From: Glaciecola sp. HTCC2999
Lineage (GTDB): Bacteria; Pseudomonadota; Gammaproteobacteria; Enterobacterales; Alteromonadaceae
Direction of reading: 5' to 3'
NCBI GenBank assembly: GCA_949498985.1
Contig: CATECQ010000019.1
Coordinates: 1-64,000, forward strand
Length of the DNA stretch: 64,000 nucleotides
The translations under genes were made by a program, and so were the position numbers. The notes under the pieces were generated by a model. It was not told the DNA's origin, searched no databases, and was given only the letters and a program-made list of their open reading frames with translations. The stretch's first letter is position 1; each line of letters opens with the position of its first letter. Shown here piece by piece: positions 1-59,515 of the stretch.

Positions 1-857
1 AATAACTTTAATTTAGTGTCAGGTGAACGCATCTTAGGATAGACCGCATAAATACCAACACGCTTCGCCGTTTGGTCTGAGAGTAACTGGGTTAATTCGC
101 CATTTTGCAAATCATCATAGACGAGTACTCTAGGTAAATAGGCGATCCCTAACCCCGCTAATACTGCTTGATGCAATGCGTTGAGATCATTGGCCACAAA
201 ATTACCTTGAACCACTTCTGTATATTCTCCCTCTGCGCTCAAAAAGCGCCAATGATTTGGCTGTGCTTCGTTGTATTTATACGTTAAACAATTATGGAAT
301 TTAAGTTCATTGCTCGATTCTGGTATGCCTTGCTGTTTAAGGTATTGCGGCGTAGCAACAATGACCCAATGCGAATCCACTAAGCGTCGTGCTAACAGAC
401 TAGAATCTTCCAAATAGCCAGTTCGAATAGCTAAGTCATAGCCTTCCTCGATTAAATTGGCAAACCGATCATCAATGATCATTTCTATCGTCACTTCTTT
501 ATATAAACGACAAAACTCCGCAATCGCTGTAGTTAAGGTCAAACGTGCTGAAACCGATGGAACGGTAATTTTAATTTTGCCACTAATAGAGTCACTATAA
601 CCACACACTGCGTCATGTGCTTCTTGCAATGCATCTTGAGCGACCTTAGCTTTGGCATAAAGGGTTTTACCACCATCCGTTAGGCTCAGCTTTCGAGTTG
701 AGCGATACAGTAATTGCATATTCAGGGCTTTTTCTAAGCGTGCGATACGTTTTGAGACGACTGAATTTGTGATCTCAAGTAACTGTGCCACTTTCGAAAA
801 AGAACCAGCATCTACCACCTGAACGAATAAAAAAATGTCATCCGCCTTTGCTTGCAT
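1..857 (-). CDS. LysR-family transcriptional regulator (3' end cut by window edge)
   Basis: The reading frame is open from ATG at 857 down to the left window edge without a stop, which is why it is missing from the ORF track. About 285 codons are present; LysR proteins are usually near 300 aa, so only a short C-terminal tail is lost. The N-terminus (MQAKADDIFLFVQVVDAGSF) leads into a winged helix-turn-helix (SKVAQLLEITNSVVSKRIAR) and is followed by a LysR substrate-binding domain. It is divergent from the FAD/Fe-S dehydrogenase across about 180 bp, the usual LysR-target arrangement, so control of that gene is a reasonable inference. The effector cannot be told from sequence; the sequence style is of the CrgA/DhcR-like large LysR subgroup. 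Confidence 0.92.
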   Translation of the reverse strand, partial: MQAKADDIFLFVQVVDAGSFSKVAQLLEITNSVVSKRIARLEKALNMQLLYRSTRKLSLTDGGKTLYAKAKVAQDALQEAHDAVCGYSDSISGKIKITVPSVSARLTLTTAIAEFCRLYKEVTIEMIIDDRFANLIEEGYDLAIRTGYLEDSSLLARRLVDSHWVIVATPQYLKQQGIPESSNELKFHNCLTYKYNEAQPNHWRFLSAEGEYTEVVQGNFVANDLNALHQAVLAGLGIAYLPRVLVYDDLQNGELTQLLSDQTAKRVGIYAVYPKMRSPDTKLKL

Positions 858-888
858 GAAAATCACCTTTATTAGTAAGCATATCTTA

Positions 889-910
889 TATAATACTATC
901 GTATATTATA
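889..910. promoter_or_regulatory. Imperfect AT-rich dyad in LysR/dehydrogenase intergenic region
   Basis: TATAATAC-TATC-GTATATTATA forms an inverted repeat with a 2-nt insertion in the right arm. It lies between the divergent lysR gene and the FAD/Fe-S dehydrogenase. LysR proteins bind interrupted dyads of this kind (T-N11-A type), so it is a candidate operator, but its AT-richness means it could also just be promoter DNA. Confidence 0.35.
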
Positions 911-1040
911 TCAATTTTGGAAACAGTTATTTTCATCTCTTGCTCTTATTTTGTGTATTATTTCGGCGTATATTGAGTACATTAGCTTTTTTGTAGATCC
1001 AGTCACTCTGGCACCTACGTTAACCTTTGGAAATCCATTT

Positions 1041-3872
1041 ATGTCATCACTCGCCCCTGCTTATATTAATGCGATTCGAGCTATTTTGCCTAAAGCTCAA
1101 GTAATTGATGATATCTCACGTCGTCGTGCCTATGCGACGGATGCCAGTTTTTACCAATTAATCCCACAACTGGTGTTAAAAGTCAGTTCCATCGAACAAA
1201 TGCAATCCATCTTAAAGACGAGCCAAGCACATAACGTTAGTGTCACGTTTCGGGCTGCCGGCACTAGCTTATCCGGCCAAGCAGTCAGTGATTCGGTGTT
1301 ACTTTTATTGGATGAACATTGGCGCGGTCATGAAATTATCAATGACGGCCAACAAATCAAACTACAACCTGGTGTCATTGGCGCGCAAGCCAATCAATAT
1401 CTAGCTCCTTATCATCGTAAAATAGGGCCCGATCCAGCTTCGATAAACACTTGTAAAATTGGGGGGATCGCCGCAAATAATGCATCAGGCATGTGTTGTG
1501 GTGTGGCGAATAATACCTTTTATACTTTGGCTGGTATGACAATCATCTTAGCTGATGGCACCTGTGTGGATACACTCGACCCCGAAAGTGTGGCTACATT
1601 TACTGCTTCACACGCTGACTTGCTCAACCAATTAACTCAACTGGGTGAAGACGTACGTAACGATAACGTGTTATCGGATTTAATTGCGCATAAATATCGC
1701 CTAAAAAACACCACCGGCTATGCTATTAATGCCTTGACTGATTTTACTGATCCTATCGATATATTGGTGCATTTAATGGTCGGTTCAGAAGGTACATTAG
1801 GATTTATCGCTGATATTACCTATAACACGGTGGTCGACCATCAACAAAAAGCTTCTGGTCTATATTTATTTGATTCGCCTCAACAGGCTTGCCAACTGGT
1901 CGATCAATTACGCGATAGTCCTGTAGATGCTGTGGAATTATTAGATCAGCGCGCTTTAGATTCCGTTCAGGGTAAGCCGGGATTACCCGATAGTTTTTGT
2001 GGTCGTAATAAACGCTGCACGGCTCTATTGATTGAAACAGCAGCGAGTGATGCTAACACGTTACATCAGCAAATCGCTCAAGTGACTCAACTAGTCAATC
2101 GCTTTAACCCCATTGAATCGATTGATTTAACCACCGACAAGATCCTATCTCAGCAGTTGTGGGCTATTCGCAAAGCCACTTTCCCAGCGGTAGGGGCAGT
2201 ACGCGAAACCGGCACCAGCGTCATTATTGAAGACGTTTCATTTCCACTTGAACAAATGGATCAAGGCGTCACGCGTTTACAAGCCTTGTTTGATAAATAT
2301 GAATACACCGAAGCGTTGATCTTTGGGCATGCACTCGCAGGTAACCTTCACTTTGTATTCACCCAAGCATTTGATACTGACACTCAAATTAAGCGCTACG
2401 ATAATTTCATGCAAGATGTTGCTCAACTTGTTGCTGTAGAGTTTGGTGGCTCACTCAAAGCCGAACATGGCACTGGGCGCAATATGGCACCCTTTGTCGA
2501 ACTAGAATGGGGCAGCACGGCTTATGCGATCATGAAACGTATCAAGCATCTCATTGATCCTCAATTCACTCTAAATCCAGGTGTCATTCTCAACGATGAT
2601 CCCCAGTCCCATATTAAGCACCTTAAACCTTTACCACGAGCTAATGATATTGTGGATAAATGTATCGAATGTGGTTTTTGTGAGCCGGTCTGTCCATCCA
2701 AAGAATTGACCTTTACTCCACGTCAACGCATTGCAATATGGCGACGGATCCAACAGCTTGAAGAACTTGGCTATCTAATTGATGCACAACGCCAAGAACT
2801 TGCACAACTCAAGCATGATTATCAATATTATGGCATCGATACGTGTGCTGCTACCGGGCTGTGTGCAGAACGTTGCCCTGTCGGTATAAATACGGGCGAT
2901 TTAATCCGTGAATTACGCGCCGAATCACATGGACGCTTTGGTCAAAGGATTGCATCGTTCTCTGCTGAGCAGTTTGCACCGATCACTAAAACAGTTAAAG
3001 CTACTTTAGGGGTAGCAGGTCGCATAAGTAAAATCATTGGACCAGAATCAACGAATGTCCTAGGTAAAATTGTGCATAACATTTCCAGAAATACGATCCC
3101 GTTGTGGTTTGCCAGTTACCCACAAGCCGCTCATGATCTGCCATCGTTCGTGGCGGCATCAAGCGAACGTCCCAAAGTCATTTATTTCCCGAGCTGCGCA
3201 ACACGCACTATGGGTGCCGACCCTCATGCTAAAGAGCAGCGCAGCGTGCCAGAAGTCGTCCAATCACTCTTTGATAAAGGCGGATATGAGGTCATCATTC
3301 CTGAATCTGTCGATGGTTTGTGTTGCGGTATGCCATTTAACTCTAAGGGATTTGTCCAGCAAGCTCAACAGAAAGGGAATGTGTTATTAACAGCTTTACA
3401 AGCAGTGTCAAAAGAAGGCGCGTATCCCATCGTGTTTGATACCAGCCCCTGTAAATTACGTTTACAGGAATTGGGTCATGAGTTACCTATATTTGAAACC
3501 ACCCAATTTATGTCCCAGTTTGTGCTTGATAAGCTCCACATTACACCATCCACAAACCCTATTGCGTTGCACGTAACTTGCAGCAGTCAAAAGATGGGGA
3601 TCGCACATGATTTACGTCATGTCGCTAACGCTTGCGCGACACACGTCGTTGAACCTGAAGGAGTCGCATGTTGTGGTTTTGCCGGCGATAAAGGTATGAC
3701 AGTACCTGAATTAAATGCCAGTGCATTATCTGGTTTAAAAGCTCAAATCCCGCAAGGATGCTCAAAAGGTTACAGTAACTCACGTACCTGTGAAATCGGT
3801 TTAACCCAGCATTCAGGCATTGACTATCAATCGTTACTCTTTTTGCTTGATGAGGTCAGTGTCGCCAAATAA
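1041..3872 (+). CDS. FAD-binding and Fe-S oxidoreductase, D-lactate/2-hydroxyacid dehydrogenase type
   Basis: This is a large single-chain flavoprotein that oxidises a 2-hydroxyacid and passes electrons through Fe-S centres, most likely to the quinone pool. I choose ATG 1041 (943 aa) over the track start because the extra 30 residues look non-homologous. In order: a PCMH-type FAD-binding domain (RAAGTSLSGQ near residue 70); an FAD-oxidase C-terminal domain (GHALAGNLHF near 433, EHGTGRNMAP near 475); two ferredoxin-like motifs (CIECGFCEPVCP at about 541 and CAATGLCAERCP at about 602); and two CCG cysteine-rich domains (CCGMPF near 761, CCGFAG near 877). The architecture and length resemble Shewanella Dld-II and E. 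coli YdiJ (D-2-hydroxyglutarate dehydrogenase), so D-lactate is likely but not certain as substrate. The divergent lysR is the probable regulator. Confidence 0.9.
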   Translation: MSSLAPAYINAIRAILPKAQVIDDISRRRAYATDASFYQLIPQLVLKVSSIEQMQSILKTSQAHNVSVTFRAAGTSLSGQAVSDSVLLLLDEHWRGHEIINDGQQIKLQPGVIGAQANQYLAPYHRKIGPDPASINTCKIGGIAANNASGMCCGVANNTFYTLAGMTIILADGTCVDTLDPESVATFTASHADLLNQLTQLGEDVRNDNVLSDLIAHKYRLKNTTGYAINALTDFTDPIDILVHLMVGSEGTLGFIADITYNTVVDHQQKASGLYLFDSPQQACQLVDQLRDSPVDAVELLDQRALDSVQGKPGLPDSFCGRNKRCTALLIETAASDANTLHQQIAQVTQLVNRFNPIESIDLTTDKILSQQLWAIRKATFPAVGAVRETGTSVIIEDVSFPLEQMDQGVTRLQALFDKYEYTEALIFGHALAGNLHFVFTQAFDTDTQIKRYDNFMQDVAQLVAVEFGGSLKAEHGTGRNMAPFVELEWGSTAYAIMKRIKHLIDPQFTLNPGVILNDDPQSHIKHLKPLPRANDIVDKCIECGFCEPVCPSKELTFTPRQRIAIWRRIQQLEELGYLIDAQRQELAQLKHDYQYYGIDTCAATGLCAERCPVGINTGDLIRELRAESHGRFGQRIASFSAEQFAPITKTVKATLGVAGRISKIIGPESTNVLGKIVHNISRNTIPLWFASYPQAAHDLPSFVAASSERPKVIYFPSCATRTMGADPHAKEQRSVPEVVQSLFDKGGYEVIIPESVDGLCCGMPFNSKGFVQQAQQKGNVLLTALQAVSKEGAYPIVFDTSPCKLRLQELGHELPIFETTQFMSQFVLDKLHITPSTNPIALHVTCSSQKMGIAHDLRHVANACATHVVEPEGVACCGFAGDKGMTVPELNASALSGLKAQIPQGCSKGYSNSRTCEIGLTQHSGIDYQSLLFLLDEVSVAK

Positions 3873-3879
3873 TCCAATT

Positions 3880-3914
3880 AAAAAACTAGCGTTGATATGA
3901 ATGATATCAGCGCT
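3880..3914 (-). terminator. Intrinsic terminator overlapping the 3' end of the TIGR03643 gene
   Basis: AGCGTTGATAT-gaatg-ATATCAGCGCT is an 11-bp stem with one G-U pair. On the minus strand it is followed by a T6 run (complement of 3880-3885). The right arm includes the stop codon of the leftward TIGR03643 gene, and the hairpin sits between convergent genes, so it may also slow rightward transcription from the dehydrogenase. Confidence 0.65.
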
Positions 3915-4248
3915 TTCTAACTGGTTTATATTGCGTTGCACAATATCCCCGTGTAACGTCCTTAGAGCGAAGTGCACCATGCTTAGTTTTACGTCCACTA
4001 ACACGCGCTCGCCAATTATTAAATGTTTTACGCTTAATACTTGCTCGCATGAGATTGATTACCTGAGGCTCTGTTAACCCAAATAACGCTTCAATGGCTT
4101 CAAATGGCGTGCGATCTTCCCATGCCATCTCAATAATTCGTGAGCGAGTTTCTTCATCAAGTTTATCTTTGCGAATTGATGAAACATCTTGTTTTACTGA
4201 CTTTAACTTAGCCGAAGCATGCTTGGGTGTTCTTGGTGTATCTAACAT
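3907..4248 (-). CDS. TIGR03643 (DUF2805) family protein
   Basis: A 113-aa basic protein with the conserved TIGR03643/DUF2805 core: an RIIEMAWEDRTPFEAIE helix region near residues 37-53, a W(R)-rich stretch (FNNWRARVSGRKTKHG, about 75-90), and a basic tail. The family is widespread in Proteobacteria and Bacteroidetes and its function is unknown. The helical, basic character would suit nucleic-acid binding, but that is inference. It lies 38 bp downstream of the FAN1-exonuclease gene on the same strand, so co-transcription is likely, and ends within its own terminator hairpin. The N-terminal 30 residues are lysine- and serine-rich and look disordered. Confidence 0.85.
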   Translation of the reverse strand: MLDTPRTPKHASAKLKSVKQDVSSIRKDKLDEETRSRIIEMAWEDRTPFEAIEALFGLTEPQVINLMRASIKRKTFNNWRARVSGRKTKHGALRSKDVTRGYCATQYKPVRKR

Positions 4249-4286
4249 AGGTATCTTGGTGTAATTTTATCTACTTATTACTACGG

Positions 4287-6452
4287 TTATAATTCAGAAT
4301 TAGATTGCTCTGCCAAACGATGTTCATTAATTATCGTCAATAATTCATTCGCCGCAATAGCATCCGACATTGCACGATGATGACGTGACATCTCAATCCC
4401 AAAATGTCGTGTCAAATTCGCCAGTGAATAAGACGCTAGGCCAGGTCTGGCTTTGCGCATTTCTCTAACCGTACACAGTTTTGCACGACTAAAATGCCGC
4501 TCTAACCGAGTGAATTCTTGTTTAATGAAGCCATAATCAAAATTCACATTATGCGCGACAAAAACACAGCCTTTGGTAAATTGTGCGACCTCGTCTGCCA
4601 CCTCAGCAAAAATAGGCGCATTGCTCACCATAACATCATCAATTCCGGTTAACGCAGAAATATTTCGGGGGATCCTTCGTTGCGGGTTAAGTAAAGTCTG
4701 ATACTCATCTACTATTTGTCCATTAATCACTTTGAGCATGCCAATCTCAGTGATTTTATGACTCGTAGCTCGTCCGCCTGTCGTTTCAATATCCACAACA
4801 ACATATGGCTGCATGGGATTAACTCCCCATGACACCGTTGTAATACCTACTGAAATCCCCGCTTTGGATAACATGCTCAGGGTGAGTAATTGGTTTTTAC
4901 GGACGCTATCTCCGGTTGCTTTGATCTCTTCAAAGCGCACTTGCTGGTTATCAATCACCATTATGTCAGGAAAGCCGTCGCTATACATTGCATAATCCTG
5001 TGCCATCGCTTTTAGCACGTTACCGAGCGACGCCGCCTTGGCATGTTCGATAAAGAGGACCAACCGCTTTAATATTTGTTTATGCCAACGAAAGATACCA
5101 TTAGGCTCACCATAATGCGCAGTGGCTTGGGCGATAATGTGTTGTTTAAGCGCATCCACCGTATCACATTGAGTCAATAGTGCATCTACACGTTCAGTTT
5201 GATCATGGTATAAATTATTATGTCGCAAATGATAAGGGCGCCAGTCAAATTCATTACCCACTGCAAATGCAGGGTCAAATATAATGTCCCAAAACATCAA
5301 ACCAAATAAACCCCGCCATAATTCGTTTTCAGTACGTAATGCTTGGATCCCACTCGCTTGGTAATGATCAACTGTCGCGGCTTCCACTCGATGTTTATGC
5401 ACTTCATCAAGTACCAACTGACGAGCACTATTACGTAGCATATCTGTCATGACGCTGGTCCGTTTTTTTTGGTATTTACGTGCTAAAAAATCCTCAGCAA
5501 ACGCCAATATATGTGAATTATCTGGCTGCTCAATAATCGCTTCTAATTGTTGTTTAACCTGCTCTTTATCAGCGTGCTGATACCGTATACGCAAGGCTTT
5601 TTCTTGAGCCTCGGGTAGCTCAGAGGCATCTAATATCGGTAATACTGTTTGCCAATCACTTTTTAGTTGTAATTGATACTTGGCGTATAACCATAAATAT
5701 TCGTTACGCTTTTGTCGCGCAAGCGTGCCGTGTGCATCGGGTAAGATATCGATACACAACGTAGGCTGTTGCGCAATTCTTCCAAGTTTGTGAATGCGTT
5801 TTAATTCACTTAGCGCAGATGCATAGAAATATGTCGACGTCGCTTCATTGAGAGAAGCAAACCTGGCTTGCATTTGAGCTACTTTTTTACGTGTTCGCAT
5901 CACGCCTAAATCACGCATTGAAAACTGATTAAGGCGGCTACCTACATTCCCAAAAAACAAGAAAAGTAGATAATCGATGATCGTATCTACTTGGCGATAC
6001 ACATATTGATGAAATATGGCATGCTCAGACACAAGAGCAAATGTTAAATGCGCTTGTGCTAAAGATAACAATTGCGCTTTAGAAGCACTGCTTAGCACAT
6101 TATCCACATCATGATCACGCAATAAAACCAATAACTTTGGCTTTGTCAGTTGCTCAAGCCATTCAAGGAAATGGGTTGCAGGGATCTGAGTTAGCCATTG
6201 TTTATCAAAGCAAACTTGCAAAGCATGCTCTGGGTCAGGGATTTCATCGTATCGTAATGAAGCACTGTCGATAAACGGTGATTTACGGTTTAAACTGCGC
6301 GCTAAAGTACACTGGACATGATGTGGTTGCTGTTTAAATACCTCAATAAATGCCCAATGCTGCTCTTCCAATAGCACTTCGCAACTACCACTGATAAAGC
6401 CTAAACATTCATGCAAGTGTTCTAAATAATAATAAGTAGGTAAATCTTTCAT
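4287..6452 (-). CDS. FAN1-type VRR-NUC structure-specific nuclease fused to DnaQ-like DEDDh 3'-5' exonuclease
   Basis: The 721-aa product looks like two DNA-repair nucleases in one chain. Residues 1-547 match bacterial FAN1 along their whole length: N-terminal FAN1 motif (YYYLEHLHE), a SAP-like segment (about 105-132), the winged-helix signature FFGN...DLGV (167-184), TPR-like helices, an FWDIIFDP segment (387-394), and a VRR-NUC core with FPDI (D496) and EEIKATGD (E509, K511). Residues 548-721 form a DEDDh exonuclease with D554/E556 (DIETTG), D639 (NFDYGF) and H692/D697 (HRAMSD), so both active sites look intact. FAN1 cuts 5' flaps and acts on interstrand crosslinks; the exonuclease could trim the products, which is inference. 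A LexA-like box lies directly upstream. Homology reaches almost to residue 1, supporting this start. Confidence 0.88.
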   Translation of the reverse strand: MKDLPTYYYLEHLHECLGFISGSCEVLLEEQHWAFIEVFKQQPHHVQCTLARSLNRKSPFIDSASLRYDEIPDPEHALQVCFDKQWLTQIPATHFLEWLEQLTKPKLLVLLRDHDVDNVLSSASKAQLLSLAQAHLTFALVSEHAIFHQYVYRQVDTIIDYLLFLFFGNVGSRLNQFSMRDLGVMRTRKKVAQMQARFASLNEATSTYFYASALSELKRIHKLGRIAQQPTLCIDILPDAHGTLARQKRNEYLWLYAKYQLQLKSDWQTVLPILDASELPEAQEKALRIRYQHADKEQVKQQLEAIIEQPDNSHILAFAEDFLARKYQKKRTSVMTDMLRNSARQLVLDEVHKHRVEAATVDHYQASGIQALRTENELWRGLFGLMFWDIIFDPAFAVGNEFDWRPYHLRHNNLYHDQTERVDALLTQCDTVDALKQHIIAQATAHYGEPNGIFRWHKQILKRLVLFIEHAKAASLGNVLKAMAQDYAMYSDGFPDIMVIDNQQVRFEEIKATGDSVRKNQLLTLSMLSKAGISVGITTVSWGVNPMQPYVVVDIETTGGRATSHKITEIGMLKVINGQIVDEYQTLLNPQRRIPRNISALTGIDDVMVSNAPIFAEVADEVAQFTKGCVFVAHNVNFDYGFIKQEFTRLERHFSRAKLCTVREMRKARPGLASYSLANLTRHFGIEMSRHHRAMSDAIAANELLTIINEHRLAEQSNSEL

Positions 6453-6460
6453 ACCAAACA

Positions 6461-6476
6461 GTGTATATACATACAG
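6461..6476 (-). promoter_or_regulatory. Candidate LexA (SOS) box before the FAN1-exonuclease gene
   Basis: Read on the minus strand the sequence is CTGTATGTATATACAC, against the consensus CTGT-N8-ACAG with an alternating AT centre; only the last core base differs. It begins 9 bp upstream of the start codon and overlaps a plausible promoter (TTTACA, 17-bp spacer, TACACT). The DNA-repair role of the gene and the clear SOS boxes at lexA in the same window make LexA control plausible. Confidence 0.55.
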
Positions 6477-6588
6477 CTTTTTTGTAAAATCATTGCACTA
6501 TTTAGTTTTTTTCAGTGTACATAAACAATCTTTTTTCTGATTCGTTGCGTAAGTATAATCATCTTCAATTAATAAGTGACTCGCCCCA

Positions 6589-6780
6589 ATGAGCCTAACG
6601 GAACCTAAAACGTTTGAATGTCCATATTGTATGGTAATTAACGATGTGGATGTTGATATTGACAATGATGTTGGGCAACAACAAATCGTTGATTGCCAAA
6701 TTTGCTGTTCACCGATAGAGTTATTGATTCAAGATTCAGGCTGGGGTTTAGAAATGATTGCCAAGAGGGATGACGAATAA
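6589..6780 (+). CDS. CPXCG-type cysteine-rich zinc-ribbon protein
   Basis: A 63-aa protein with cysteines at 11, 14, 36 and 39 (CPYC and CQIC), the pattern of the CPXCG small cysteine-rich family (PF14255), though the first motif ends CPYCM rather than CPYCG. The four cysteines probably bind one zinc; the role of the family is unknown. Its TAA stop overlaps the ATG of the flavin-reductase-like gene (TAATG), indicating translational coupling. A TATAAT at 6554-6559 could be its -10 element, but the -35 is poor and the Shine-Dalgarno is weak. Confidence 0.82.
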   Translation: MSLTEPKTFECPYCMVINDVDVDIDNDVGQQQIVDCQICCSPIELLIQDSGWGLEMIAKRDDE

Positions 6781-7412
6781 TGCACTTTAATGCTTGCGAT
6801 ATCAGCAACATGGAACAGCGCTATCGTGCTAACTTCATCAACACGTTATCCGGTTTTAAAAGTGCTAACTTAATTGGATCCGTTAATGCTGCAGGGCAAC
6901 ACAACTTAGCGATTGTCAGTTCCGTTTTCCATATTGGCGCACACCCACCTCTAATAGGGATGATAATGCGTCCACATACTGTCCCGCGCGATACGCTTCA
7001 AAATATCAAAGACACTGGTGTATATACGATTAATCATGTCCACAGTGATTTTGTAAAGGCCGCCCACCATACTTCAGCTCGTTTCCCTGAAGAGGTCAGT
7101 GAATTTGAAGAAGTTGGATTAACTCCTTGGTTCAGTGCAACGCATAAAGCCCCATTTGTACAAGAATCTCGAGTGAAAATCGCCTTAGAAGTCCAAGACA
7201 TTCAACTTTTAGCGCTGAATCAAACCGAGCTAGTGATTGGCCAAGTGGTTGAAGTTGTTGTCGATGAGCAGAGTATCGCTGAAGACGGATACATCGATCT
7301 TGAATCATTAGGAAGTGCCACTATCTCCGGTTTAGATAGTTACCATCAAACACAACGAATTTCCCGATATGGATATGCAAAAGCAGGTGAACCTGTTACA
7401 AAGATAAAATAG
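6780..7412 (+). CDS. Flavin reductase-like / FMN-binding split-barrel protein
   Basis: A 210-aa protein of the flavin_reduct (PF01613) split-barrel type. It shows the family's early core (NLIGSVNAAGQHNLAIVSSV), the PPLIGMIMRPHTVPRDT stretch with its conserved threonine/phosphate-contact region, and a TGVYTINHV strand. These proteins bind FMN and often act as NAD(P)H:flavin reductases or unknown oxidoreductases; no substrate can be assigned here. The start codon overlaps the stop of the zinc-ribbon gene by one base. The next gene follows after 13 bp and the HiPIP gene after that, suggesting one redox-related transcript. Confidence 0.85.
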   Translation: MHFNACDISNMEQRYRANFINTLSGFKSANLIGSVNAAGQHNLAIVSSVFHIGAHPPLIGMIMRPHTVPRDTLQNIKDTGVYTINHVHSDFVKAAHHTSARFPEEVSEFEEVGLTPWFSATHKAPFVQESRVKIALEVQDIQLLALNQTELVIGQVVEVVVDEQSIAEDGYIDLESLGSATISGLDSYHQTQRISRYGYAKAGEPVTKIK

Positions 7413-7425
7413 TGAGAACGCTTAT

Positions 7426-7623
7426 ATGAACCCAGCACTGGATCCGAACTTTGACCAATTATTAATTATTTGCGGTATTATTAGTGTCATTGTAATTGCA
7501 TTTGTTTTGTTCGTGATCAAACTACCAGATGAAGAAATCCGGTATGATGAAAAAGATACAACGTCAAAAAATATATCTAAACCTAATTGCAGTCGTTCAC
7601 AAAACGAAGATGAAGAGTTTTAA
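7426..7623 (+). CDS. Small single-span membrane protein, unknown function
   Basis: A 65-aa protein with one clear hydrophobic segment (residues 11-32, LLIICGIISVIVIAFVLFVI) followed by an acidic, polar tail of about 30 residues. I do not recognise a family. It is preceded by a GTGAGAA Shine-Dalgarno-like sequence, lies 13 bp after the flavin-reductase-like gene and 36 bp before the HiPIP gene, and is on the same strand, so it probably belongs to the same transcript. Its position suggests a membrane anchor or accessory role, which is inference only. Confidence 0.6.
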   Translation: MNPALDPNFDQLLIICGIISVIVIAFVLFVIKLPDEEIRYDEKDTTSKNISKPNCSRSQNEDEEF

Positions 7624-7659
7624 TTTAATCCATATAGAATGAGAAACTAAGGAAGCATA

Positions 7660-7947
7660 ATGAAAGATATTAAACGCCGTGACTTTTTAAAATTATCAGG
7701 TGGTGCACTAATTGGTATGACACTTGGTTCAGTATCATTACGCGCTGCTGCAGAGGAACTTGATCCTTCAGACCCAACTGCCGCAGCATTAAAATATGCG
7801 AAAGTATCACCTGTCGAAGGTGCATACTGTGAAAACTGCATGTTTGTGCAAGGAGAAGACGGCCAAGAACTTCGACCTTGTGCAATTTTCCCAGGCAAAC
7901 AAGTAGCAGCAAAAGGCTGGTGTTCTGCCTGGGCGAAGAAAGCATAA
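7660..7947 (+). CDS. High-potential iron-sulfur protein (HiPIP), Tat-exported
   Basis: A 95-aa precursor of a soluble periplasmic [4Fe-4S] electron carrier. The N-terminus carries a twin-arginine signal (KRRDFLKLSGGALIGM) with cleavage expected near residues 30-33, so the cofactor would be inserted in the cytoplasm before export. Four cysteines at 57, 60, 74 and 88 have HiPIP spacing, and GWCSAW at the C-terminus is typical. HiPIPs carry electrons from the bc1 complex to terminal oxidases or reaction centres in other bacteria; here the caa3 oxidase encoded 50 kb away is a possible acceptor, which is inference. A strong AAGGA ribosome site precedes the ATG, and a hairpin terminator follows. 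Confidence 0.93.
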   Translation: MKDIKRRDFLKLSGGALIGMTLGSVSLRAAAEELDPSDPTAAALKYAKVSPVEGAYCENCMFVQGEDGQELRPCAIFPGKQVAAKGWCSAWAKKA

Positions 7948-7973
7948 CTACATAAAATATGAGAGTTAATCGT

Positions 7974-8015
7974 TAGAATAAGAGATGAAACACGCTCTTA
8001 TTCTAGATCGCTTTT
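7974..8015 (+). terminator. Intrinsic terminator after the HiPIP gene
   Basis: TAGAATAAGAG-(10 nt)-CTCTTATTCTA is a perfect 11-bp stem. A CTTTTT tract follows five bases later, which is a little far, and the stem is AT-rich, so termination strength is uncertain. It closes the zinc-ribbon to HiPIP gene group. The rest of the gap to the carboxypeptidase (to 8157) shows nothing else clear. Confidence 0.6.
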
Positions 8016-8157
8016 TCATTCAGATAATGTAAGGTCATTAACTGTTCTGTTATCCAAAGACCTAATATATACCTCATCTTTGCCTAGCACATTATGATAA
8101 GATTGGTGTGATAATCAATCTATTCAAAGAATAAACATATTTCCTTTAGGTGAACCT

Positions 8158-9660
8158 ATGTCAAACACCCTATACATGCTGATTTTTTTATTGTTTACAC
8201 TTTCATGCATTGGCAAAGTCTTAGCGACTGAGCAACCTGTTGTTACCGATCCTGAAGCACGTATGAGTATCACTCAACATAGTGCAAAGTTTAATGGTAA
8301 AACCGTGAAATACTCCGTCCACGCTGGCGATCATTTTTTATATGATGAGCACCGCACTCCTAAAGCCAACATATACTCAACCGCGTATTTTGCTGATCAA
8401 CAAACTTCCTCTGAACGTCCAATATTATTTATCTTTAATGGCGGGCCTGGCTCTTCAAGTGTCTGGTTACATATGGGGGTATTTGGCCCTAAACGTGTTG
8501 TCTTGCCAAGTAATGCAGAACCTGTCGGTGCGCCGCCTTACGATTTGGCTCATAATCCTCTTAGTTTAATCGACATAGCAGACATGGTATTTATTGACCC
8601 TGTAGGTACTGGCTACTCTCACCCTTTAGGCAAATACCAAGGAAAAGACTTTTGGGGCGTCAAAGAAGATGCTGTCGTAATGGCCGATTTTGTCAGGGCG
8701 TTTACCCGTCAACATAATTTATTTAATCGACCAAAATATCTCGTGGGTGAAAGTTATGGCACCACTCGCGCTGGCGCAATGGTTAAAGAGCTCCAAGAAG
8801 GCTGGGGAACATTTGATTTATCAGGCGTGATGCTCATCTCGTCGATTGTAGATTTTCAAACCGGTGATTTTAATGTCGGTAATGATTTACCTTTTATTAC
8901 GTTTTTACCTACTTATGCCGCCACTGCTTGGTATCACAATGCGATTGATCGCAGCCAGTTTGCTAACCTTGAGGCCTTTCTTCAGGAAGTCCGCGACTTC
9001 GCCCTGGGAGAATACGCAACGGTTCTACTTAAAGGTAGCTTGGCTTCTGAGGCTGAACGTGAGTCGGTGTTATTGCAACTTGAGCGTATGACGGGTTTAA
9101 GTAAAGCATTTTTAACCCGCGCCAATTTACGGATTAATGAATTTCAATTCATGAAAGAATTAAAGCGTGATGAAGGACTCGCCGTGGGACGTTTAGATAG
9201 TCGATACTTAGGTAAAGAGAGTGATTTAAATGCCGAACGTTTTGAGGCTGATCCTTCTGGATACGCTATCGATGGCGCATACACTGCATTAATCAATCAT
9301 TACATGCGCACCGAACTAAACGTTAAGCGTAATGCTCAATATCATATTTTAAGTGGTCAGGTCTTCAGTAACTGGAATTGGTTGTATGAGCGCAGTGCCC
9401 GCAGCCAAGGATTTTTAAATGTGACGCCTTTTATCGCTAAAGCGATGCGACAAAACAAAGATTTTCGTGTCTTTGTTGGCAATGGTTATTATGACCTTGC
9501 GACTCCATTTTTCGCCACAGAACATTCTATGAACCATAATGGTATAGATCCGTCTCGGGTCACTATGAAATATTATGAAGCCGGTCACATGATGTATATT
9601 CATGAACCTTCTTTAATTGCTATCGTGAACGATATGCGTCAATTTTTACAGGCACAATAA
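8158..9660 (+). CDS. S10 family serine carboxypeptidase, secreted
   Basis: A 500-aa carboxypeptidase-Y-type peptidase of the alpha/beta-hydrolase fold that removes C-terminal residues from peptides. It has a signal peptide (about residues 1-23, ending VLA), the oxyanion-region motif [11 protein letters not shown] near residue 92, and the full triad: Ser199 in GESYG, Asp446 in GYYDLATP and His477 in AGHMMY. Export to the periplasm or outside is expected, and the type II secretion system encoded in this window could carry it out, though that is only a possibility. TTTAGGTGA supplies the ribosome site. Its stop is one base before the GTG start of prmA, so the two are probably co-translated despite unrelated functions. 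Confidence 0.93.
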
Positions 9661-9661
9661 C

Positions 9662-10540
9662 GTGGCATATATCCAACTTAAAATTAATATGATTGCAGAA
9701 TACGCTGAAGCGCTTGGTGATATGCTATCAGGTAATGGCGCTCAAGCTGTCACATTCTTAGATGCAAAAGACACTCCGATGTATGAACCGAAGCCAGGGG
9801 AAGTAATGCTGTGGCCTGACACTCAAGTCATTGGATTATTTGATGCCGCGGATGATATGCAGGGAATTATTGAACGACTGGCACAATCTAAGCTACTTAA
9901 AGACGAATTTGTATATGTCCTTGACCCACTCGAAGATAAAGATTGGGAGCGTGAATGGATGGACAATTTCCACGCTATGCGTTTTGGTGAGCGTCTATGG
10001 GTATGCCCTTCATGGCGTGAAATTCCCGAACCTGATGCGGTCAATGTGATGCTCGATCCGGGGCTGGCATTTGGTACCGGGACACACGCAACTACAGCGT
10101 TATGCTTACGTTGGTTAGATAGTTTGTCCCTTTCAGGAGCAAAAGTACTCGATTTTGGATGTGGTAGCGGGATTTTAGGTATTGCGGCTTTAAAATTAGG
10201 TGCTGCGGACATGTTAGGTATTGATATTGATCCACAAGCTTTACAAGCCACTGAAGCGAACGCTCAACGTAATGGTGTCGCAGATAAACTTACCCTTGCA
10301 TTACCAAAAGATGATCCTCAATACCTGGCTGATATCGTATGTGCCAATATCCTTGCTGCGCCACTTCGTGAGCTAAGAGAGGTCATCAGTGGATATTGTA
10401 AACAAGGTGGACAAATTATCCTGTCAGGTATATTAGTCGAACAAGCAGCAGAAATCGCCGATCTTTACCGAGCTGACTTTTCCATCAATGACATCGTTGT
10501 GGAAGGTGATTGGGCAAGTATTAGCGGCACCAAGCTCTAG
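9662..10540 (+). CDS. prmA: Ribosomal protein L11 methyltransferase
   Basis: PrmA trimethylates ribosomal protein L11 at several amino groups using S-adenosylmethionine. The 292-aa product has the N-terminal L11-recognition domain (starting AYIQLKIN, close to the E. coli MPWIQLKLN start) and a C-terminal Rossmann methyltransferase domain with [10 protein letters not shown] near residue 162, the acidic IDIDP loop, and CANILAAPL. The start codon is GTG at 9662, fixed by this N-terminal similarity, with only a weak ribosome site; translation probably depends on coupling to the carboxypeptidase gene just upstream. prmA next to dusB-fis is a conserved gammaproteobacterial arrangement, where panF usually sits upstream. 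Confidence 0.96.
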
Positions 10541-10596
10541 TTATTTACTTTCATACATGTCAAGTAAAAAAATTACATTTTGATTAAAAAATAGTC

Positions 10597-10625
10597 TTTT
10601 CAAATAACTCAAAAAGGCGTAATAT
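10597..10625 (+). promoter_or_regulatory. Candidate stringent-type promoter of dusB-fis
   Basis: TTTTCA (10597-10602), a 17-bp spacer, and TAATAT (10620-10625) are followed at once by a GC-rich discriminator (TGCGCTCC). That arrangement is expected for growth-rate and ppGpp-controlled promoters such as E. coli dusB-fis. It leaves a leader of about 90 nt before dusB. Confidence 0.5.
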
Positions 10626-10724
10626 TGCGCTCCTTTGACGAATTCCAGGTTATTAATTGCACAATATGCGTGTTTTTTATGCATTTTGCGATTATTTTTT
10701 TTGGTTAAGTACATGAGGTCGTAG

Positions 10725-11726
10725 TTGAACTCTCCTATTCAAATTGGTGCTTATTCACTAGAAAATAACTTGATGTTAGCACCTATGGCAGGTGTAACTG
10801 ATAGGCCTTTTCGTCAAATGTGCAAACAGATGGGCGCAGGTTTAGTGGTTTCAGAGATGCTCTCGAGTAACCCTAAGGTTTGGCATACTGAAAAGTCAAA
10901 AATGCGTATGGACCATACTGGGGAACATGGAGTTCGTTCCGTTCAAATAGCGGGCTCTGACCCGAATCTCATGGCTGAGGCTGCACAATTTAATGTCAAT
11001 AACGGTGCGCAAATCATCGATATCAACATGGGTTGTCCAGCAAAGAAAGTAAATAAAAAAATGGCAGGCTCTGCGTTACTGCAGTATCCAGAAATTGTAG
11101 AAGAAATTCTCGATGCTGTTGTTAATAGTGTAGATGTGCCAGTGACACTAAAAATACGAACTGGTTGGGATACGGATAATCGAAACGGTGTGCAAATTGC
11201 TAAACTTGCACAACAGTACAATATCCAATCCTTAGCAGTACATGGCCGAACCAAAGCCTGTATGTATAAAGGTAATGCTGAATACGATACGATCCGTGCA
11301 ATTAAACGTGCGGTGGAAATCCCAGTCATTGCTAATGGTGATATTACGACACCAGAAAAAGCGAAATATGTTTTGCAACACACCAATGCTGACGGATTAA
11401 TGATAGGTCGTGGAGCCCAAGGAAACCCTTGGATTTTCCGTGAAATTCTATATTATTTAGAGCATGGTGAGCGTTTACCTGAACCAGAGCTAACCGAACA
11501 ATGCACTGTCATGTTGGAACATGTGTCCAATGTCCACAATTTTTATGGTGGAATTAGTGGTGTAAGAATTGCTCGAAAGCATGTGGGTTGGTATATCGCT
11601 AAATATGATCAAGGAAGAAGTTTTCGTGAACACTTCAACGGTATTGATGATGCTGCAGAGCAGCTAGATGCACTAGAAATGTTCTATTCACGACTTCATA
11701 AGAAATTAGTTTCTTCAGTCGCTTAA
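10725..11726 (+). CDS. dusB: tRNA-dihydrouridine synthase B
   Basis: DusB reduces specific uridines in the tRNA D-loop using FMN and NADPH. The 333-aa protein has a TIM-barrel with APMAGVTDRPFR near residue 18, SEMLSSNPKVW, the catalytic cysteine in INMGCPAKKVN (about residue 105), and phosphate-binding IPVIANGDI and MIGRGAQGNPWIF motifs. The start is TTG at 10725: GAGGT lies 5 nt upstream and homology to E. coli DusB begins at once. The four codons just before it read ATG-AGG-TCG-TAG, a three-residue start-stop frame that contains the ribosome site. fis follows after 28 bp and is likely in the same operon. Confidence 0.96.
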   Translation: MNSPIQIGAYSLENNLMLAPMAGVTDRPFRQMCKQMGAGLVVSEMLSSNPKVWHTEKSKMRMDHTGEHGVRSVQIAGSDPNLMAEAAQFNVNNGAQIIDINMGCPAKKVNKKMAGSALLQYPEIVEEILDAVVNSVDVPVTLKIRTGWDTDNRNGVQIAKLAQQYNIQSLAVHGRTKACMYKGNAEYDTIRAIKRAVEIPVIANGDITTPEKAKYVLQHTNADGLMIGRGAQGNPWIFREILYYLEHGERLPEPELTEQCTVMLEHVSNVHNFYGGISGVRIARKHVGWYIAKYDQGRSFREHFNGIDDAAEQLDALEMFYSRLHKKLVSSVA

Positions 11727-11754
11727 TTGTCTAAAATAATAAAGAGCAGTATAT

Positions 11755-12048
11755 ATGTTTGATCAAAATGCATCGTCACCGTTTACTACTATAGTTACTA
11801 CCCCTGCACAAACTACCGCCCAGAAGCCTTTACGCGAGTCAGTAAAACAAGCAGTTAACAAGTATCTTAAGCAGCTAGAAAACACAAATATCGAAACCTT
11901 ATACGATATGGTGTTAAGCGAAGTGGAAGCACCACTACTTGAAGAAGTGATGACCTACACCCGTGGTAATCAGACTAAAGCAGCGAATATGATGGGTATC
12001 AACCGTGGTACTCTTCGCAAAAAATTAAAGCAATACGGCATGGGCTAG
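11755..12048 (+). CDS. fis: DNA-binding protein Fis
   Basis: Fis is a nucleoid protein and transcription regulator that bends DNA and activates rRNA and other growth-related promoters. The 97-aa product is nearly the usual 98 aa. The C-terminal half is almost identical to E. coli Fis ([20 protein letters not shown], then [14 protein letters not shown]), including the helix-turn-helix; the N-terminal arm that contacts recombinases is less conserved. It is the second gene of the dusB-fis operon and is followed by a strong terminator. Confidence 0.98.
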
Positions 12049-12074
12049 TATTGCAAAGGGGATTCCCCTAAGCT

Positions 12075-12106
12075 AAGAGCACCTTTTGAGGTGCTCTTTT
12101 CGTTTT
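12075..12106 (+). terminator. Intrinsic terminator after fis
   Basis: AAGAGCACCT-TTTG-AGGTGCTCTT is a perfect 10-bp GC-containing stem with a 4-nt loop, followed by TT and CGTTTT. It ends the dusB-fis operon 26 bp after the fis stop and separates it from purH. Confidence 0.92.
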
Positions 12107-12154
12107 ACCTACGCATAGAATTTTTCACTAAGCACACATAAGAAGTATATTATT

Positions 12155-13753
12155 ATGTCTACATCATCTCCTATTCGCCGCGCTTTGTTAAGCGTATCTG
12201 ATAAAACTGGCATCGTTGAGTTTGCCTCAGCTTTAGTCGCCCAAGACGTAGAATTGTTATCTACGGGTGGCACAGCAAAGCTGCTTGCAGAAGCGGGCTT
12301 ACCTGTGATTGAAGTGTCTGATTACACGGGACATCCTGAAATTATGGATGGTCGAGTAAAAACCTTACACCCAATGATTCATGGTGGTATTTTAGCTCGC
12401 CGTGGTCAAGACGAAGCGGTGATGGCAGATAATAATATCCAAGCTATTGATTTAGTTGTGGTCAACCTATATCCGTTCGCAGCAACCGTAGCCAACCCTG
12501 ACTGTACTTTACCTGACGCAATTGAAAATATTGATATTGGTGGCCCAACCATGGTCCGTGCAGCAGCTAAAAACCATAACGATGTCACTATTGTGGTGAA
12601 TGCTTCTGATTATGCTCATGTACTTCAACAAATGTCAGATAATAATGGCGCGGTTGATCACGCGACCCGCTTTGACCTGGCAATTAAAGCATTTGAACAT
12701 ACGGCAGAGTATGATGGCATGATTGCTAACTACTTTGGCGCTCGTTTAGACTCTGCAAATTGTGATGATGATTGTGGACATGAGCACAGTGAATTCCCGC
12801 GTACTTATAATATCCAAGTAAGCAAAAAACAAGATTTACGCTATGGTGAAAACGCTCATCAATCTGCAGCATTTTATGTTGAAAACGATATCCAAGAAGC
12901 ATCAGTTGCGACTGCAGAGCAATTACAAGGTAAAGAGTTATCGTTTAACAATATCGCTGATACCGACTCCGCCTTAGAATGTGTTAAAGAATTTGCTGAG
13001 CCAGCTTGTGTTATAGTGAAACATGCTAATCCATGTGGTGTAGCATTAGGCGACGACATTTTAACCGCTTATAACCGTGCTTATCAGACTGACCCAACAT
13101 CGGCTTTTGGTGGTATCATCGCATTTAACCGTGAACTTGATGCTAACACCGCTCAAGCAATTATCGATCGTCAGTTTGTAGAAGTTATCATCGCTCCCAC
13201 TGTCAGCAAAGAAGCACAAACAGTACTAAGTGCTAAACAGAACGTACGCGTATTAGCCTGTGGTGATTGGCAAGGCCAGCTTACTGATGGGTTCGATTTC
13301 AAACGCGTCAATGGTGGATTATTGATCCAAGAGCGTGATTTTGGCATGGTTGAATTAGATGATTTAACTGTCGTCACTAAAGTCAAGCCAACTGAAGCCC
13401 AGTTACAAGATCTATTATTTACGTGGAAAGTGGCTAAATATGTTAAATCTAATGCGATTGTTTACTGCAAAGACGGTATGACGATTGGTGTGGGTGCCGG
13501 TCAAATGAGCCGTGTCTATTCTGCAAAAATTGCGGGTATTAAAGCCGCAGATGAAGGTCTTGTGGTTGAGGGCAGTGTCATGGCATCAGATGCGTTCTTC
13601 CCATTTAGAGATGGAATTGACGCAGCCGCTGCTGCAGGTATTAGTGCGGTCATTCAGCCAGGCGGTTCGATGCGAGATGATGAAGTCATCGCTGCTGCAG
13701 ATGAAGCGGGCATTGCTATGGTATTTACTGGCATGCGCCATTTCCGCCACTAA
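12155..13753 (+). CDS. purH: Bifunctional AICAR transformylase / IMP cyclohydrolase
   Basis: PurH carries out the last two steps of de novo IMP synthesis: formyl transfer to AICAR and ring closure. The 532-aa protein has the N-terminal MGS-like cyclohydrolase domain ([23 protein letters not shown]) and the C-terminal transformylase domain with the catalytic [10 protein letters not shown] segment, plus the usual [10 protein letters not shown] and QPGGSMRD ends. A short His/Asp/Cys insertion (CDDDCGHEH) near residue 205 is a common variable linker in the family. purD follows after 24 bp; purH-purD is the standard gammaproteobacterial operon. Confidence 0.97.
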
Positions 13754-13777
13754 ACCAACGAATATTAAGGAATTATT

Positions 13778-15064
13778 ATGCAAGTATTAGTTATAGGTAG
13801 CGGGGGTCGCGAACATGCACTGGCATGGAAAGCGGCTCAATGTGCAGATGTGACAAAGGTATTTGTTGCACCGGGTAACGCAGGTACTGCTACTGAAGCA
13901 AATTTAGAAAATGTTGATATTAGTGTTGGTGACATTGCAGGATTGGTGGCATTTGCACAAAACAATGCCATTGAATTGACGATTGTTGGACCTGAACAAC
14001 CCCTTGTGGATGGTGTGGTAGATGCATTCAACGCGGCTGGATTAGCTTGCTTTGGTCCTACTGCAGCAGCGGCTCAGTTAGAAGGTTCAAAGGCTTTTAC
14101 TAAAGACTTTTTAGCGCGTCATAACATCCCTACTGGCGCATATCAAAACTTCACTGAAATCGAACCTGCCATCGCTTATGTACGTGAAAAAGGGGCCCCC
14201 ATCGTAGTCAAAGCTGACGGTTTAGCCGCTGGTAAGGGTGTAATTGTCGCCATGACTTTAGTTGAAGCTGAAGATGCGATCAAAGATATGCTCGCGGGTA
14301 ATGCCTTTGGTGAAGCAGGTAGTCGTGTCGTAATTGAAGAATTTTTAGATGGTGAAGAAGCTAGCTTTATCGTCATGGTAGACGGTAAAAATATTGCGTC
14401 TTTTGCCACTTCTCAAGATCACAAACGTGTCGGTGATGGTGATACTGGCCTTAACACAGGTGGAATGGGCGCATATTCGCCAGCCCCCGTTGTTACTCCA
14501 GAAATTCATGATCGTATCATGCAAGAAGTCATTGAACCGACCGTAGCAGGTATGGCTTCTGAAGGTAACGATTATACTGGATTTCTATATGCCGGATTAA
14601 TGATTACTGCAGATGGCACACCAAAAGTGATTGAGTACAATTGTCGTTTTGGCGATCCAGAAACACAGCCGATCATGATGCGTTTGCAATCTGATCTCGT
14701 CGCACTATGCTTAAAAGCAACACAAGGCGAATTAGCTGATACCGTTATTGAATTTGATTCACGTCCTGCAGTCGGTGTCGTATTAGCTGCTGGCGGATAT
14801 CCTGGCAGTTATGCAAAAGGCATTGAAATTTCAGGTCTTGGCACAGGTGAATCTGATGATGCTAAGGTGTTTCATGCAGGTACAGCATCTCATAATGGTT
14901 CAGTCGTCACTGCCGGTGGACGTGTCTTATGTGCAACTGCATTAGGTGAGTCAGTCACGCAAGCACAACAATCGGCTTATCAACTTGCCAAAACAATCTC
15001 ATGGGATGGTATGTTCCATCGCAATGATATTGCATATCGTGCAATTGCCCGAGAAAATAACTAG
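13778..15064 (+). CDS. purD: Phosphoribosylamine-glycine ligase (GAR synthetase)
   Basis: PurD joins phosphoribosylamine and glycine with ATP, the second step of purine synthesis. The 428-aa protein shows the N-terminal GSGGREHALAWK motif, the VGPEQPLVDG segment, an ATP-grasp domain (VVKADGLAAGKGV, EEASFIVMVDG), DHKRVGDGDTGLNTGGMGAY and the metal-binding EYNCRFGDPETQ. The AAGGA ribosome site is well placed before ATG 13778. The prkB start codon comes 10 bp after its stop, so all three genes may be co-transcribed. Confidence 0.97.
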   Translation: MQVLVIGSGGREHALAWKAAQCADVTKVFVAPGNAGTATEANLENVDISVGDIAGLVAFAQNNAIELTIVGPEQPLVDGVVDAFNAAGLACFGPTAAAAQLEGSKAFTKDFLARHNIPTGAYQNFTEIEPAIAYVREKGAPIVVKADGLAAGKGVIVAMTLVEAEDAIKDMLAGNAFGEAGSRVVIEEFLDGEEASFIVMVDGKNIASFATSQDHKRVGDGDTGLNTGGMGAYSPAPVVTPEIHDRIMQEVIEPTVAGMASEGNDYTGFLYAGLMITADGTPKVIEYNCRFGDPETQPIMMRLQSDLVALCLKATQGELADTVIEFDSRPAVGVVLAAGGYPGSYAKGIEISGLGTGESDDAKVFHAGTASHNGSVVTAGGRVLCATALGESVTQAQQSAYQLAKTISWDGMFHRNDIAYRAIARENN

Positions 15065-15074
15065 GAAGGTAATT

Positions 15075-15977
15075 ATGTCAGCGAAACACCCTATTATTGC
15101 TATTACGGGTTCATCTGGTGCTGGGACAACCACCACTACCAATGCTATTCGTCATATTTTTCGCAATTTAAGTGTCAACGCTGCTGTAGTCAGCGGTGAT
15201 AGTTTTCACCGCTATACCCGACCTGAAATGGAACTAGAAATCCGTAAAGCCCAAGACCAAGGTAAGCATATTAGTTATTTTGGCCCTATTGCTAATGATT
15301 TCGAGCTACTTGAAAATCTCTTTACTCAATATGCCAACGATGGCTCTGGGCAATACCGTCAGTATTTACATACTTTTGATGAAGCCGTTCCTTTTAATCA
15401 AATGCCTGGTACATTTACACCATGGCAAGACCTACCAACAAATACTGATTTATTGTTTTATGAAGGGTTACATGGAGGGATCGCGACGGAAGATCACAAC
15501 GTCGCTAAGCATGTCGATTTACTCGTGGGCATGGTACCGATAGTTAATTTAGAGTGGATTCAAAAAATTGTGCGTGACACCACTGATCGAGGCCATAGCC
15601 GCGAAGCGGTAATGAGTAGCATTGTTAGATCATTGGATGATTACTTCCAATATATCACCCCACAATTTTCACAAACACATGTTAACTTCCAACGCGTACC
15701 AACGGTCGATACCTCTAATCCCTTTAGTGCTAGAGAGATCCCAAGCCAAGATGAAAGCTTTGTCGTTGTGCGTTTCCGCCAAGAAATGACCAATGTTGAC
15801 TACCCTTACCTCCTTAAAATGATTGATGGTTCGTTTATGTCGCGCATGAACACTATCGTCGTTCCGGGTGGCAAAATGGGATTAGCAATGGAATTGATAT
15901 TAACTCCATTAATTGAAGACATTTTAGAAGCTAAACGTCGTTCAAGAATCCAAATGGATTGGGTCCAAGATCAATAA
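15075..15977 (+). CDS. prkB: Phosphoribulokinase-family protein
   Basis: The 300-aa product closely resembles E. coli PrkB, a phosphoribulokinase/uridine-kinase family protein whose real job in non-autotrophs is unclear. It starts MSAKHPIIAITGSSGAGTTT: the P-loop reads GSSGAGTT rather than GxGKS/T, as in E. coli PrkB. Other matches are GDSFHRYTRPEM, FYEGLHGG and VPGGKMGLAMELI. The track frame extends upstream to 14946 inside purD; ATG 15075 is preferred because it carries the conserved N-terminus and a GGAAGGT ribosome site. No RuBisCO or other Calvin-cycle gene is in the window, so carbon fixation should not be inferred. Confidence 0.93.
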   Translation: MSAKHPIIAITGSSGAGTTTTTNAIRHIFRNLSVNAAVVSGDSFHRYTRPEMELEIRKAQDQGKHISYFGPIANDFELLENLFTQYANDGSGQYRQYLHTFDEAVPFNQMPGTFTPWQDLPTNTDLLFYEGLHGGIATEDHNVAKHVDLLVGMVPIVNLEWIQKIVRDTTDRGHSREAVMSSIVRSLDDYFQYITPQFSQTHVNFQRVPTVDTSNPFSAREIPSQDESFVVVRFRQEMTNVDYPYLLKMIDGSFMSRMNTIVVPGGKMGLAMELILTPLIEDILEAKRRSRIQMDWVQDQ

Positions 15978-58849: not shown

Positions 58850-59473
58850 CTACATCCAATCAGCATTCCTTATAACACCGACTGCAATTCCTTCAATATT
58901 AAATGGCTCTTCCGCTAGATCGACTTTGATGGGATCAAAATCCTCGTTCTCTGCATGTAATAGGACATGTTGGCCATTCTTCTCTAAACGTTTTACCGTC
59001 ACATCTTCACCTACTCGTGCCACGACAACCTGCCCGTTGTGAACATCAATAGTGCGATGAACAGCCAACAAATCACCATCCAAGATACCAATGTCTTTCA
59101 TCGACATACCATTTACTCGTAACAAAAAATCGGCTTGTGGATGAAATAAGTTCGGATCTACCTGGTAATGAGACTCAACATGTTCCTGCGCCAATATTGG
59201 CTCCCCCGCAGCGACTCGACCGATTAAAGGTAAGCCCAACTCTTCAGGTGTATCATCTAAAGGAATATTTAACTTAATGCCACGAGAAGTACCCGCTAAA
59301 ATCTCAATCACCCCTTTTCGAGCCAGTGCTTTAAGGTGCTCCTCTGCTGCATTAGGAGATTTAAAGCCTAACTGACGCGCAATCTCTGCACGCGTGGGAG
59401 GCATCCCCGTATCAAGCATAGTGGCTTTGATTAAATCGAGAACTTCTTGTTGTCTGGGAGTTAGTGGACGCAT
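58850..59473 (-). CDS. lexA: LexA repressor
   Basis: LexA represses the SOS regulon and cleaves itself when RecA filaments form on damaged DNA. The 207-aa protein has the winged-helix DNA-binding domain (1-70, [20 protein letters not shown]), the cleavage bond A89-G90 in RVAAGEP, and the catalytic dyad S124 (NGMSMKD) and K161 (VTVKRLE). Two SOS boxes directly upstream indicate autoregulation. It is divergent from plsB. Confidence 0.98.
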
Positions 59474-59480
59474 AAACAGC

Positions 59481-59496
59481 CTGTTAATTAATACAG
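59481..59496. promoter_or_regulatory. LexA (SOS) box 1 upstream of lexA
   Basis: CTGTTAATTAATACAG is a full match to CTGT-N8-ACAG. It lies 8 bp upstream of the lexA start codon and is a very probable autoregulatory operator. Confidence 0.93.
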
Positions 59497-59499
59497 TTA

Positions 59500-59515
59500 C
59501 TGTTAGTATATCCAG
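59500..59515. promoter_or_regulatory. LexA (SOS) box 2 upstream of lexA
   Basis: CTGTTAGTATATCCAG matches CTGT-N8-ACAG except for one core base (CCAG). It follows box 1 after three bases, nearly two helical turns between centres. E. coli lexA likewise has two closely spaced operators. Confidence 0.75.

Follow-up and report, generated by a model that had tools for sequence, protein, structure and literature searches.

What does a bacterium gain from carrying a FAN1 nuclease and a DnaQ-like exonuclease on one polypeptide, and do the two halves work together? The gene that raises this question lies in a 64,000-nucleotide stretch of a Glaciecola sp. HTCC2999 contig (hereafter, the window), where an intact open reading frame of 721 aa with full-length homologues occupies exactly positions 4287–6452. 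It runs on the minus strand, from an ATG start and with zero internal stops, and the plus strand across the same interval is stop-rich. The first-pass annotation had named no strand for the gene.

Profile searches divided the protein into three Pfam domains, all scoring over their curated cut-offs: FAN1_HTH (PF21315, E = 2e-14; residues 7–87, positions 6192–6434), VRR_NUC (PF08774, E = 1e-12; residues 437–542, positions 4827–5144) and RNase_T (PF00929, E = 5e-34; residues 551–704, positions 4341–4802), all on the minus strand like the gene itself. The order along the chain is FAN1_HTH, a TPR-like region, VRR_NUC with D496, E509 and K511, a linker of seven residues, and the DEDDh 3′–5′ exonuclease with D554, E556, D639, H692 and D697. 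The linker, delimited by spacing counts, comprises residues 543–549 (GVNPMQP; positions 4806–4826, minus strand; family motif DPxQ) and is predicted with a pLDDT of about 89–92. No curated family in Pfam or NCBIfam profile searches spans the full 721 aa. An AlphaFold2 model of the protein reached a mean pLDDT of 89.6 and a pTM of 0.77, the latter being only moderately informative about how the two active sites would be positioned relative to each other. The first-pass annotation had placed FAN1 in the N-terminal part and a DEDDh exonuclease behind it; that reading, its boundaries and its catalytic residues agree with Pfam, with alignment to Pseudomonas aeruginosa FAN1 (PaFAN1) and with an alignment of 44 family members. 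FAN1_HTH and VRR_NUC both fall within the N-terminal part, and Foldseek searches with the predicted structure matched the FAN1 part and the DEDDh C-terminus alike.

Enzymes of the FAN1 (KIAA1018) clade are monomeric 5′-flap endonucleases that do not cleave Holliday junctions. Residues 6–545 of the fusion align end to end with PaFAN1 (phmmer, 6–544 against PaFAN1 19–557), forming a unit of ~545 aa with FAN1_HTH at its N-terminal and VRR_NUC at its C-terminal end, as in PaFAN1. Foldseek matched this part to PaFAN1–flap complexes (TM by target length 0.77–0.80; 0.79 with E = 1e-25 for 5y7q, and 0.79–0.80 for 5y7q and 5y7g together), and the match covers the NTD, TPR and VRR-Nuc regions of the FAN1 fold. 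Against PaFAN1 (PDB 4r89/5y7g; KIAA1018 clade of VRR-Nuc), identity in the fold alignment is about 21%, with a TM of 0.79 over the target. In the phmmer alignment, D496, E509 and K511 correspond to PaFAN1 D507, E522 and K524, and E375 to E386, so the fusion holds the same PD-(D/E)XK residues together with the glutamate that serves as fourth metal ligand. D507, E522, K524 and E386 are the metal-binding residues of PaFAN1 (PMC4348246; numbering also in PMC9635880), and FAN1 and PaFAN1 cleave 5′ flaps a few nucleotides beyond the junction (PMC4103454, PMC9635880). PaFAN1, however, stops at VRR-Nuc, whereas the fusion adds about 175 residues that form the exonuclease.

The added domain carries all five DEDDh catalytic residues (D, E, D, H, D) on an RNase H-like fold, and Foldseek matched the C-terminus to the exonucleases of DinG, PolC and epsilon. 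By sequence, its best matches among solved structures are the DinG and PolC exonucleases, led by the N-terminal DEDDh domain of Staphylococcus aureus DinG (8zef), which differs from the fusion in being joined to a helicase rather than to a nuclease. We considered and rejected a captured DnaQ epsilon subunit, on the tree and on a TIGR01406 score (86.9 bits) that falls below the cut-off of that model (222.7). A separate dnaQ-like open reading frame is present on another contig of the same genome (C40). The best NCBIfam profile was instead NF005906 (167 bits, versus 87 for true epsilon), and the nearest relatives are DEDDh domains that run on into a GIY-YIG nuclease of the UvrC/Cho type. These DEDDh–GIY-YIG proteins (PRK07883/NF005906) are the closest to the exonuclease by sequence, with 46–59% identity to Bacteroidota members, and like the fusion they join a DEDDh exonuclease to a repair-type endonuclease. 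The fusion is nonetheless not a member of PRK07883, as its NF005906 score is 167 against 495 bits and it has no GIY-YIG domain; moreover, the GIY-YIG partner stands C-terminal of the exonuclease, whereas the FAN1 partner stands N-terminal. A possible functional parallel is MrfB, a DEDDh exonuclease that, like the fusion's exonuclease, belongs by description to the DnaQ superfamily and that Bacillus subtilis needs to repair mitomycin C damage (PMC10889028). Unlike the fusion, MrfB is a stand-alone protein paired with the MrfA helicase, and it has no FAN1 part.

Both active sites are conserved across the family. In the 44-sequence alignment, whose members share 34–67% identity with the window protein, all eight residues (D496, E509, K511, D554, E556, D639, H692 and D697) are invariant, as is E375. 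All 112 fusion sequences retain the VRR motif; L155 alone fell outside the search pattern, and read by eye its motif is complete, with a longer loop. The DEDDh pattern holds in 111 of the 112. The exception is an alphaproteobacterial fusion (L151, G536:C54) that reads DIGT for DIET; having lost the exonuclease glutamate, this copy is probably inactive as an exonuclease. Comparison of the two Glaciecola-type copies gave a dN/dS of about 0.04–0.09 for each domain, at dS values that approach or exceed saturation, and both domains are under purifying selection.

How widely this architecture occurs, which the first-pass annotation had left open, can now be answered in part. A search of GTDB-species genome contigs matched 79 loci, of which 68 hold the complete fusion in a single reading frame, and the one-chain form is found in more than 60 named genomes. 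The fusion is common in Alteromonadales; Neptunomonas has it too, as do alphaproteobacteria, on plasmids of Bradyrhizobium and in MAGs labelled Hellea. Its genera include Glaciecola, Paraglaciecola, Alteromonas, Salinimonas, Aestuariibacter, Marisediminitalea, Pseudoalteromonas and Neptunomonas, with a further occurrence in MAGs labelled Idiomarina. Plasmid records carry it in Pseudoalteromonas and Bradyrhizobium, and annotated copies are named 'exonuclease domain-containing protein'. We found no paper on VRR-Nuc with DnaQ, or on FAN1 with an exonuclease and Alteromonas, in the open-access literature; the combination probably does appear in public tables of domain architectures. The architecture is thus old, conserved and apparently undescribed, but not a new system.

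In a maximum-likelihood phylogeny built from the FAN1 part, a single branch with support of 100/100 separated 45 fused sequences from 26 stand-alone FAN1s of the same phylum (about 540–630 aa), setting the fusion's FAN1 part in a clade apart from the sampled stand-alone proteins. The simplest reading of this tree is a single fusion event with transfer into alphaproteobacteria. For the single origin we rely on the FAN1 tree because the exonuclease tree does not leave the fused set strictly one clade: the fused sequences group together in 22% of its bootstrap trees, and Bacteroidota GIY-YIG sequences sit with weak support among the early fused branches. With 168 columns, the exonuclease alignment was too short for rooting the fusion, and we dropped that use of it.

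We then looked upstream of the gene for gammaproteobacterial LexA operators of the form CTGT-N8-ACAG near the start codon. One such box, AGCTGTATGTATATACACTG, lies directly before the fusion start codon (positions 6459–6478, minus strand; 16-bp core 6461–6476) and has one core mismatch. Perfect boxes precede recA, umuD and uvrD elsewhere in this genome (genes named by eye from their protein starts), and the window contains its own positive control in lexA (58850–59473, minus strand), with a perfect box at 59481–59496 and a second, with one mismatch, at 59500–59515. Since boxes stand before recA, umuD, uvrD and lexA, we take CTGT-N8-ACAG to be the operator of this organism. Within the window, sites with one mismatch number 15 where chance predicts 21, so the single box here proves nothing and the evidence lies in recurrence. 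Upstream of 80 of 97 distinct fusion loci there is a LexA box at p ≤ 0.01 by first-order Markov resampling, and, with the plain first Met taken as the start, 71% of 62 fusion genes have a score of at least 27, versus 1.2% of 758 other genes at the same loci. The inner sequences of the boxes and their distances from the gene vary among Pseudoalteromonas, Alteromonas and Neptunomonas; hence the site itself has been kept, not merely the stretch around it. A putative LexA operator therefore precedes the gene in most gammaproteobacterial carriers, and its conservation at fusion loci is new here. The Bradyrhizobium copies showed no such box. Stand-alone FAN1s of several gammaproteobacterial families (L109, L126, L142, L164, L170 and L171) also carry LexA-like boxes, which makes SOS control a wider FAN1 habit and not one special to the fusion.

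The reading that we favor, and hold to be probable, is that the fusion is an SOS-induced DNA-repair nuclease that uses both active sites of its single chain. The strongest competing view is that the two domains act independently, FAN1 incising flaps and crosslinks while the tethered DEDDh domain degrades single-stranded tails elsewhere, so that fusion would bring co-regulation and nothing further. Such modularity is in keeping with the many partners to which DEDDh domains are joined (DinG helicase, PolC, GIY-YIG), with the separate completeness of the two active sites, and with DinG and PolC being the best solved matches of the exonuclease. The linker argues otherwise. From Trp542, at the end of the last VRR strand, to Tyr550, at the exonuclease start, there are seven residues in 105 of 105 pattern-matched fusions, and the remaining 7, which do not have the Trp, show the same spacing by eye, while the rest of the protein tolerates many indels (802 alignment columns for 721 residues). 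We read this constancy as pointing to a fixed geometry, although inheritance of a short linker from a common ancestor could account for it as well. Fused and free FAN1 also appear to replace each other among genomes: 21 of 79 relatives carry the fusion, 6 carry a stand-alone FAN1 and none carries both, and no genome in the class and phylum samples combined the two. On this balance we regard independent action as unlikely.

The surroundings of the gene bear on a second view, in which the fusion is mainly a nuclease of mobile elements or defense that destroys invading or phage DNA. Its presence on Bradyrhizobium conjugative plasmids and on second replicons of Pseudoalteromonas would suit such a role, as would matches of the exonuclease to the PADLOC candidate PDC-S48 models. 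Those matches span the DEDDh domain only, however, and on that ground we rejected a defense system. Carriage by phages or viruses was likewise rejected: 50,697 phage records held no full-length copy and IMG/VR a single exonuclease-domain match, so that only the DEDDh domain was found, besides a weak partial PHROG match on the VRR side. The LexA box and the housekeeping neighbors of the window gene, in a local synteny shared with relatives, also speak against defense, which we consider very improbable as the main function. Alphaproteobacterial copies adjoin genes for SRAP (L115 and L196), Pol IV-type polymerases (L114, by eye, and L199), Ku (L114), and an ATP-dependent ligase with PolX (L197). 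No operon partner is common to all of the 31 loci compared. Directly downstream of the window gene lies a gene for a DUF2805 protein (3907–4248, minus strand), and homologues of it are immediately downstream in 7 and nearby in 8 of the 31 fusion loci. In 11 of the 31 loci the fusion gene is preceded by a small HNH-like open reading frame of the same orientation (CPLC..HHLIP), directly so in 10 (for example, L008 4996–5409, L017 7561–7929 and L020 7572–7874). The window locus lacks this frame; one of two tested passed the Pfam HNH cut-off, and the product is a possible repair or defense partner.

Finally, that sequencing or assembly error, or the chance joining of two adjacent genes, made the fusion is effectively refuted, frameshifted though the gene is in a near-identical HTCC2255 record, by an intact second copy with collinear flanks in the same bin, by the 68 full-length loci of many genera, and by strong purifying selection; the single chain proposed in the first-pass annotation is real. 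The second copy, 83% identical, lies on contig C12 of the same MAG (2.07 Mb, 83.5% complete). Its locus (L112, G000:C12:30000–46000) is collinear with window positions 1–15977, about 15.9 kb, at 79–83% nucleotide identity. Because these flanks are collinear, we rejected a recent paralogue and read the copy as an orthologue from a second co-binned population; the bin holds two related Glaciecola-like populations. The HTCC2255 record (L015, DS022288.2, 'alpha proteobacterium HTCC2255') is 99.3% identical to window positions 1–14452, and this alteromonad DNA under an alphaproteobacterial name is likely contamination or a mixed culture. In another genome (G033:C4:3197436–3200833) the fusion gene is split, its N-terminal 91 residues lying about 1.3 kb from the remainder, perhaps through an insertion.

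How might an SOS-induced, two-site repair nuclease work? DNA damage would lift LexA repression and the fusion would be expressed. Its FAN1 part would bind a stalled fork or a 5′ flap, in many cases one at an interstrand crosslink, and VRR-Nuc would incise the strand past the junction. The DEDDh domain would digest 3′ ends at the same site, whether those of the nascent strand, of the unhooked strand or of tails arising from the incision, and the lesion-bearing fragment, shortened from both sides, would become fit for recombination or translesion fill-in. The protein is predicted to act at bulky or crosslinked lesions, on forks that have stalled there or on flaps. We infer this course, from SOS induction through flap or fork recognition and VRR-Nuc incision to 3′ trimming, and with it the enzymatic coupling of FAN1 to the exonuclease. 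The first-pass annotation had imagined a single-protein repair machine, an idea that gains from the conserved LexA box, the repair-gene neighbors in alphaproteobacteria, the purifying selection and the fixed-length linker; its further step, in which the exonuclease acts on FAN1 products, stays conjectural. More tentatively still, and with doubt prevailing, the protein could be a bidirectional unhooking enzyme in which VRR-Nuc works 5′ to 3′ across the lesion and a rigidly docked DEDDh domain works 3′ to 5′ on the same or the nascent strand, making it the main crosslink-repair nuclease of Alteromonadales. If so, one SOS-induced chain would do what eukaryotes divide among FAN1 and separate exonucleases.

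FAN1 has roles in crosslink repair and in the repeat expansion of Huntington's disease, yet little is known of what it does in bacteria. The putatively LexA-controlled fusion occurs in Alteromonas and Pseudoalteromonas, which can be cultured, and so opens the bacterial role to direct testing. The fusion also suggests that FAN1 incision may normally precede 3′-end trimming, including where the partners are separate proteins.
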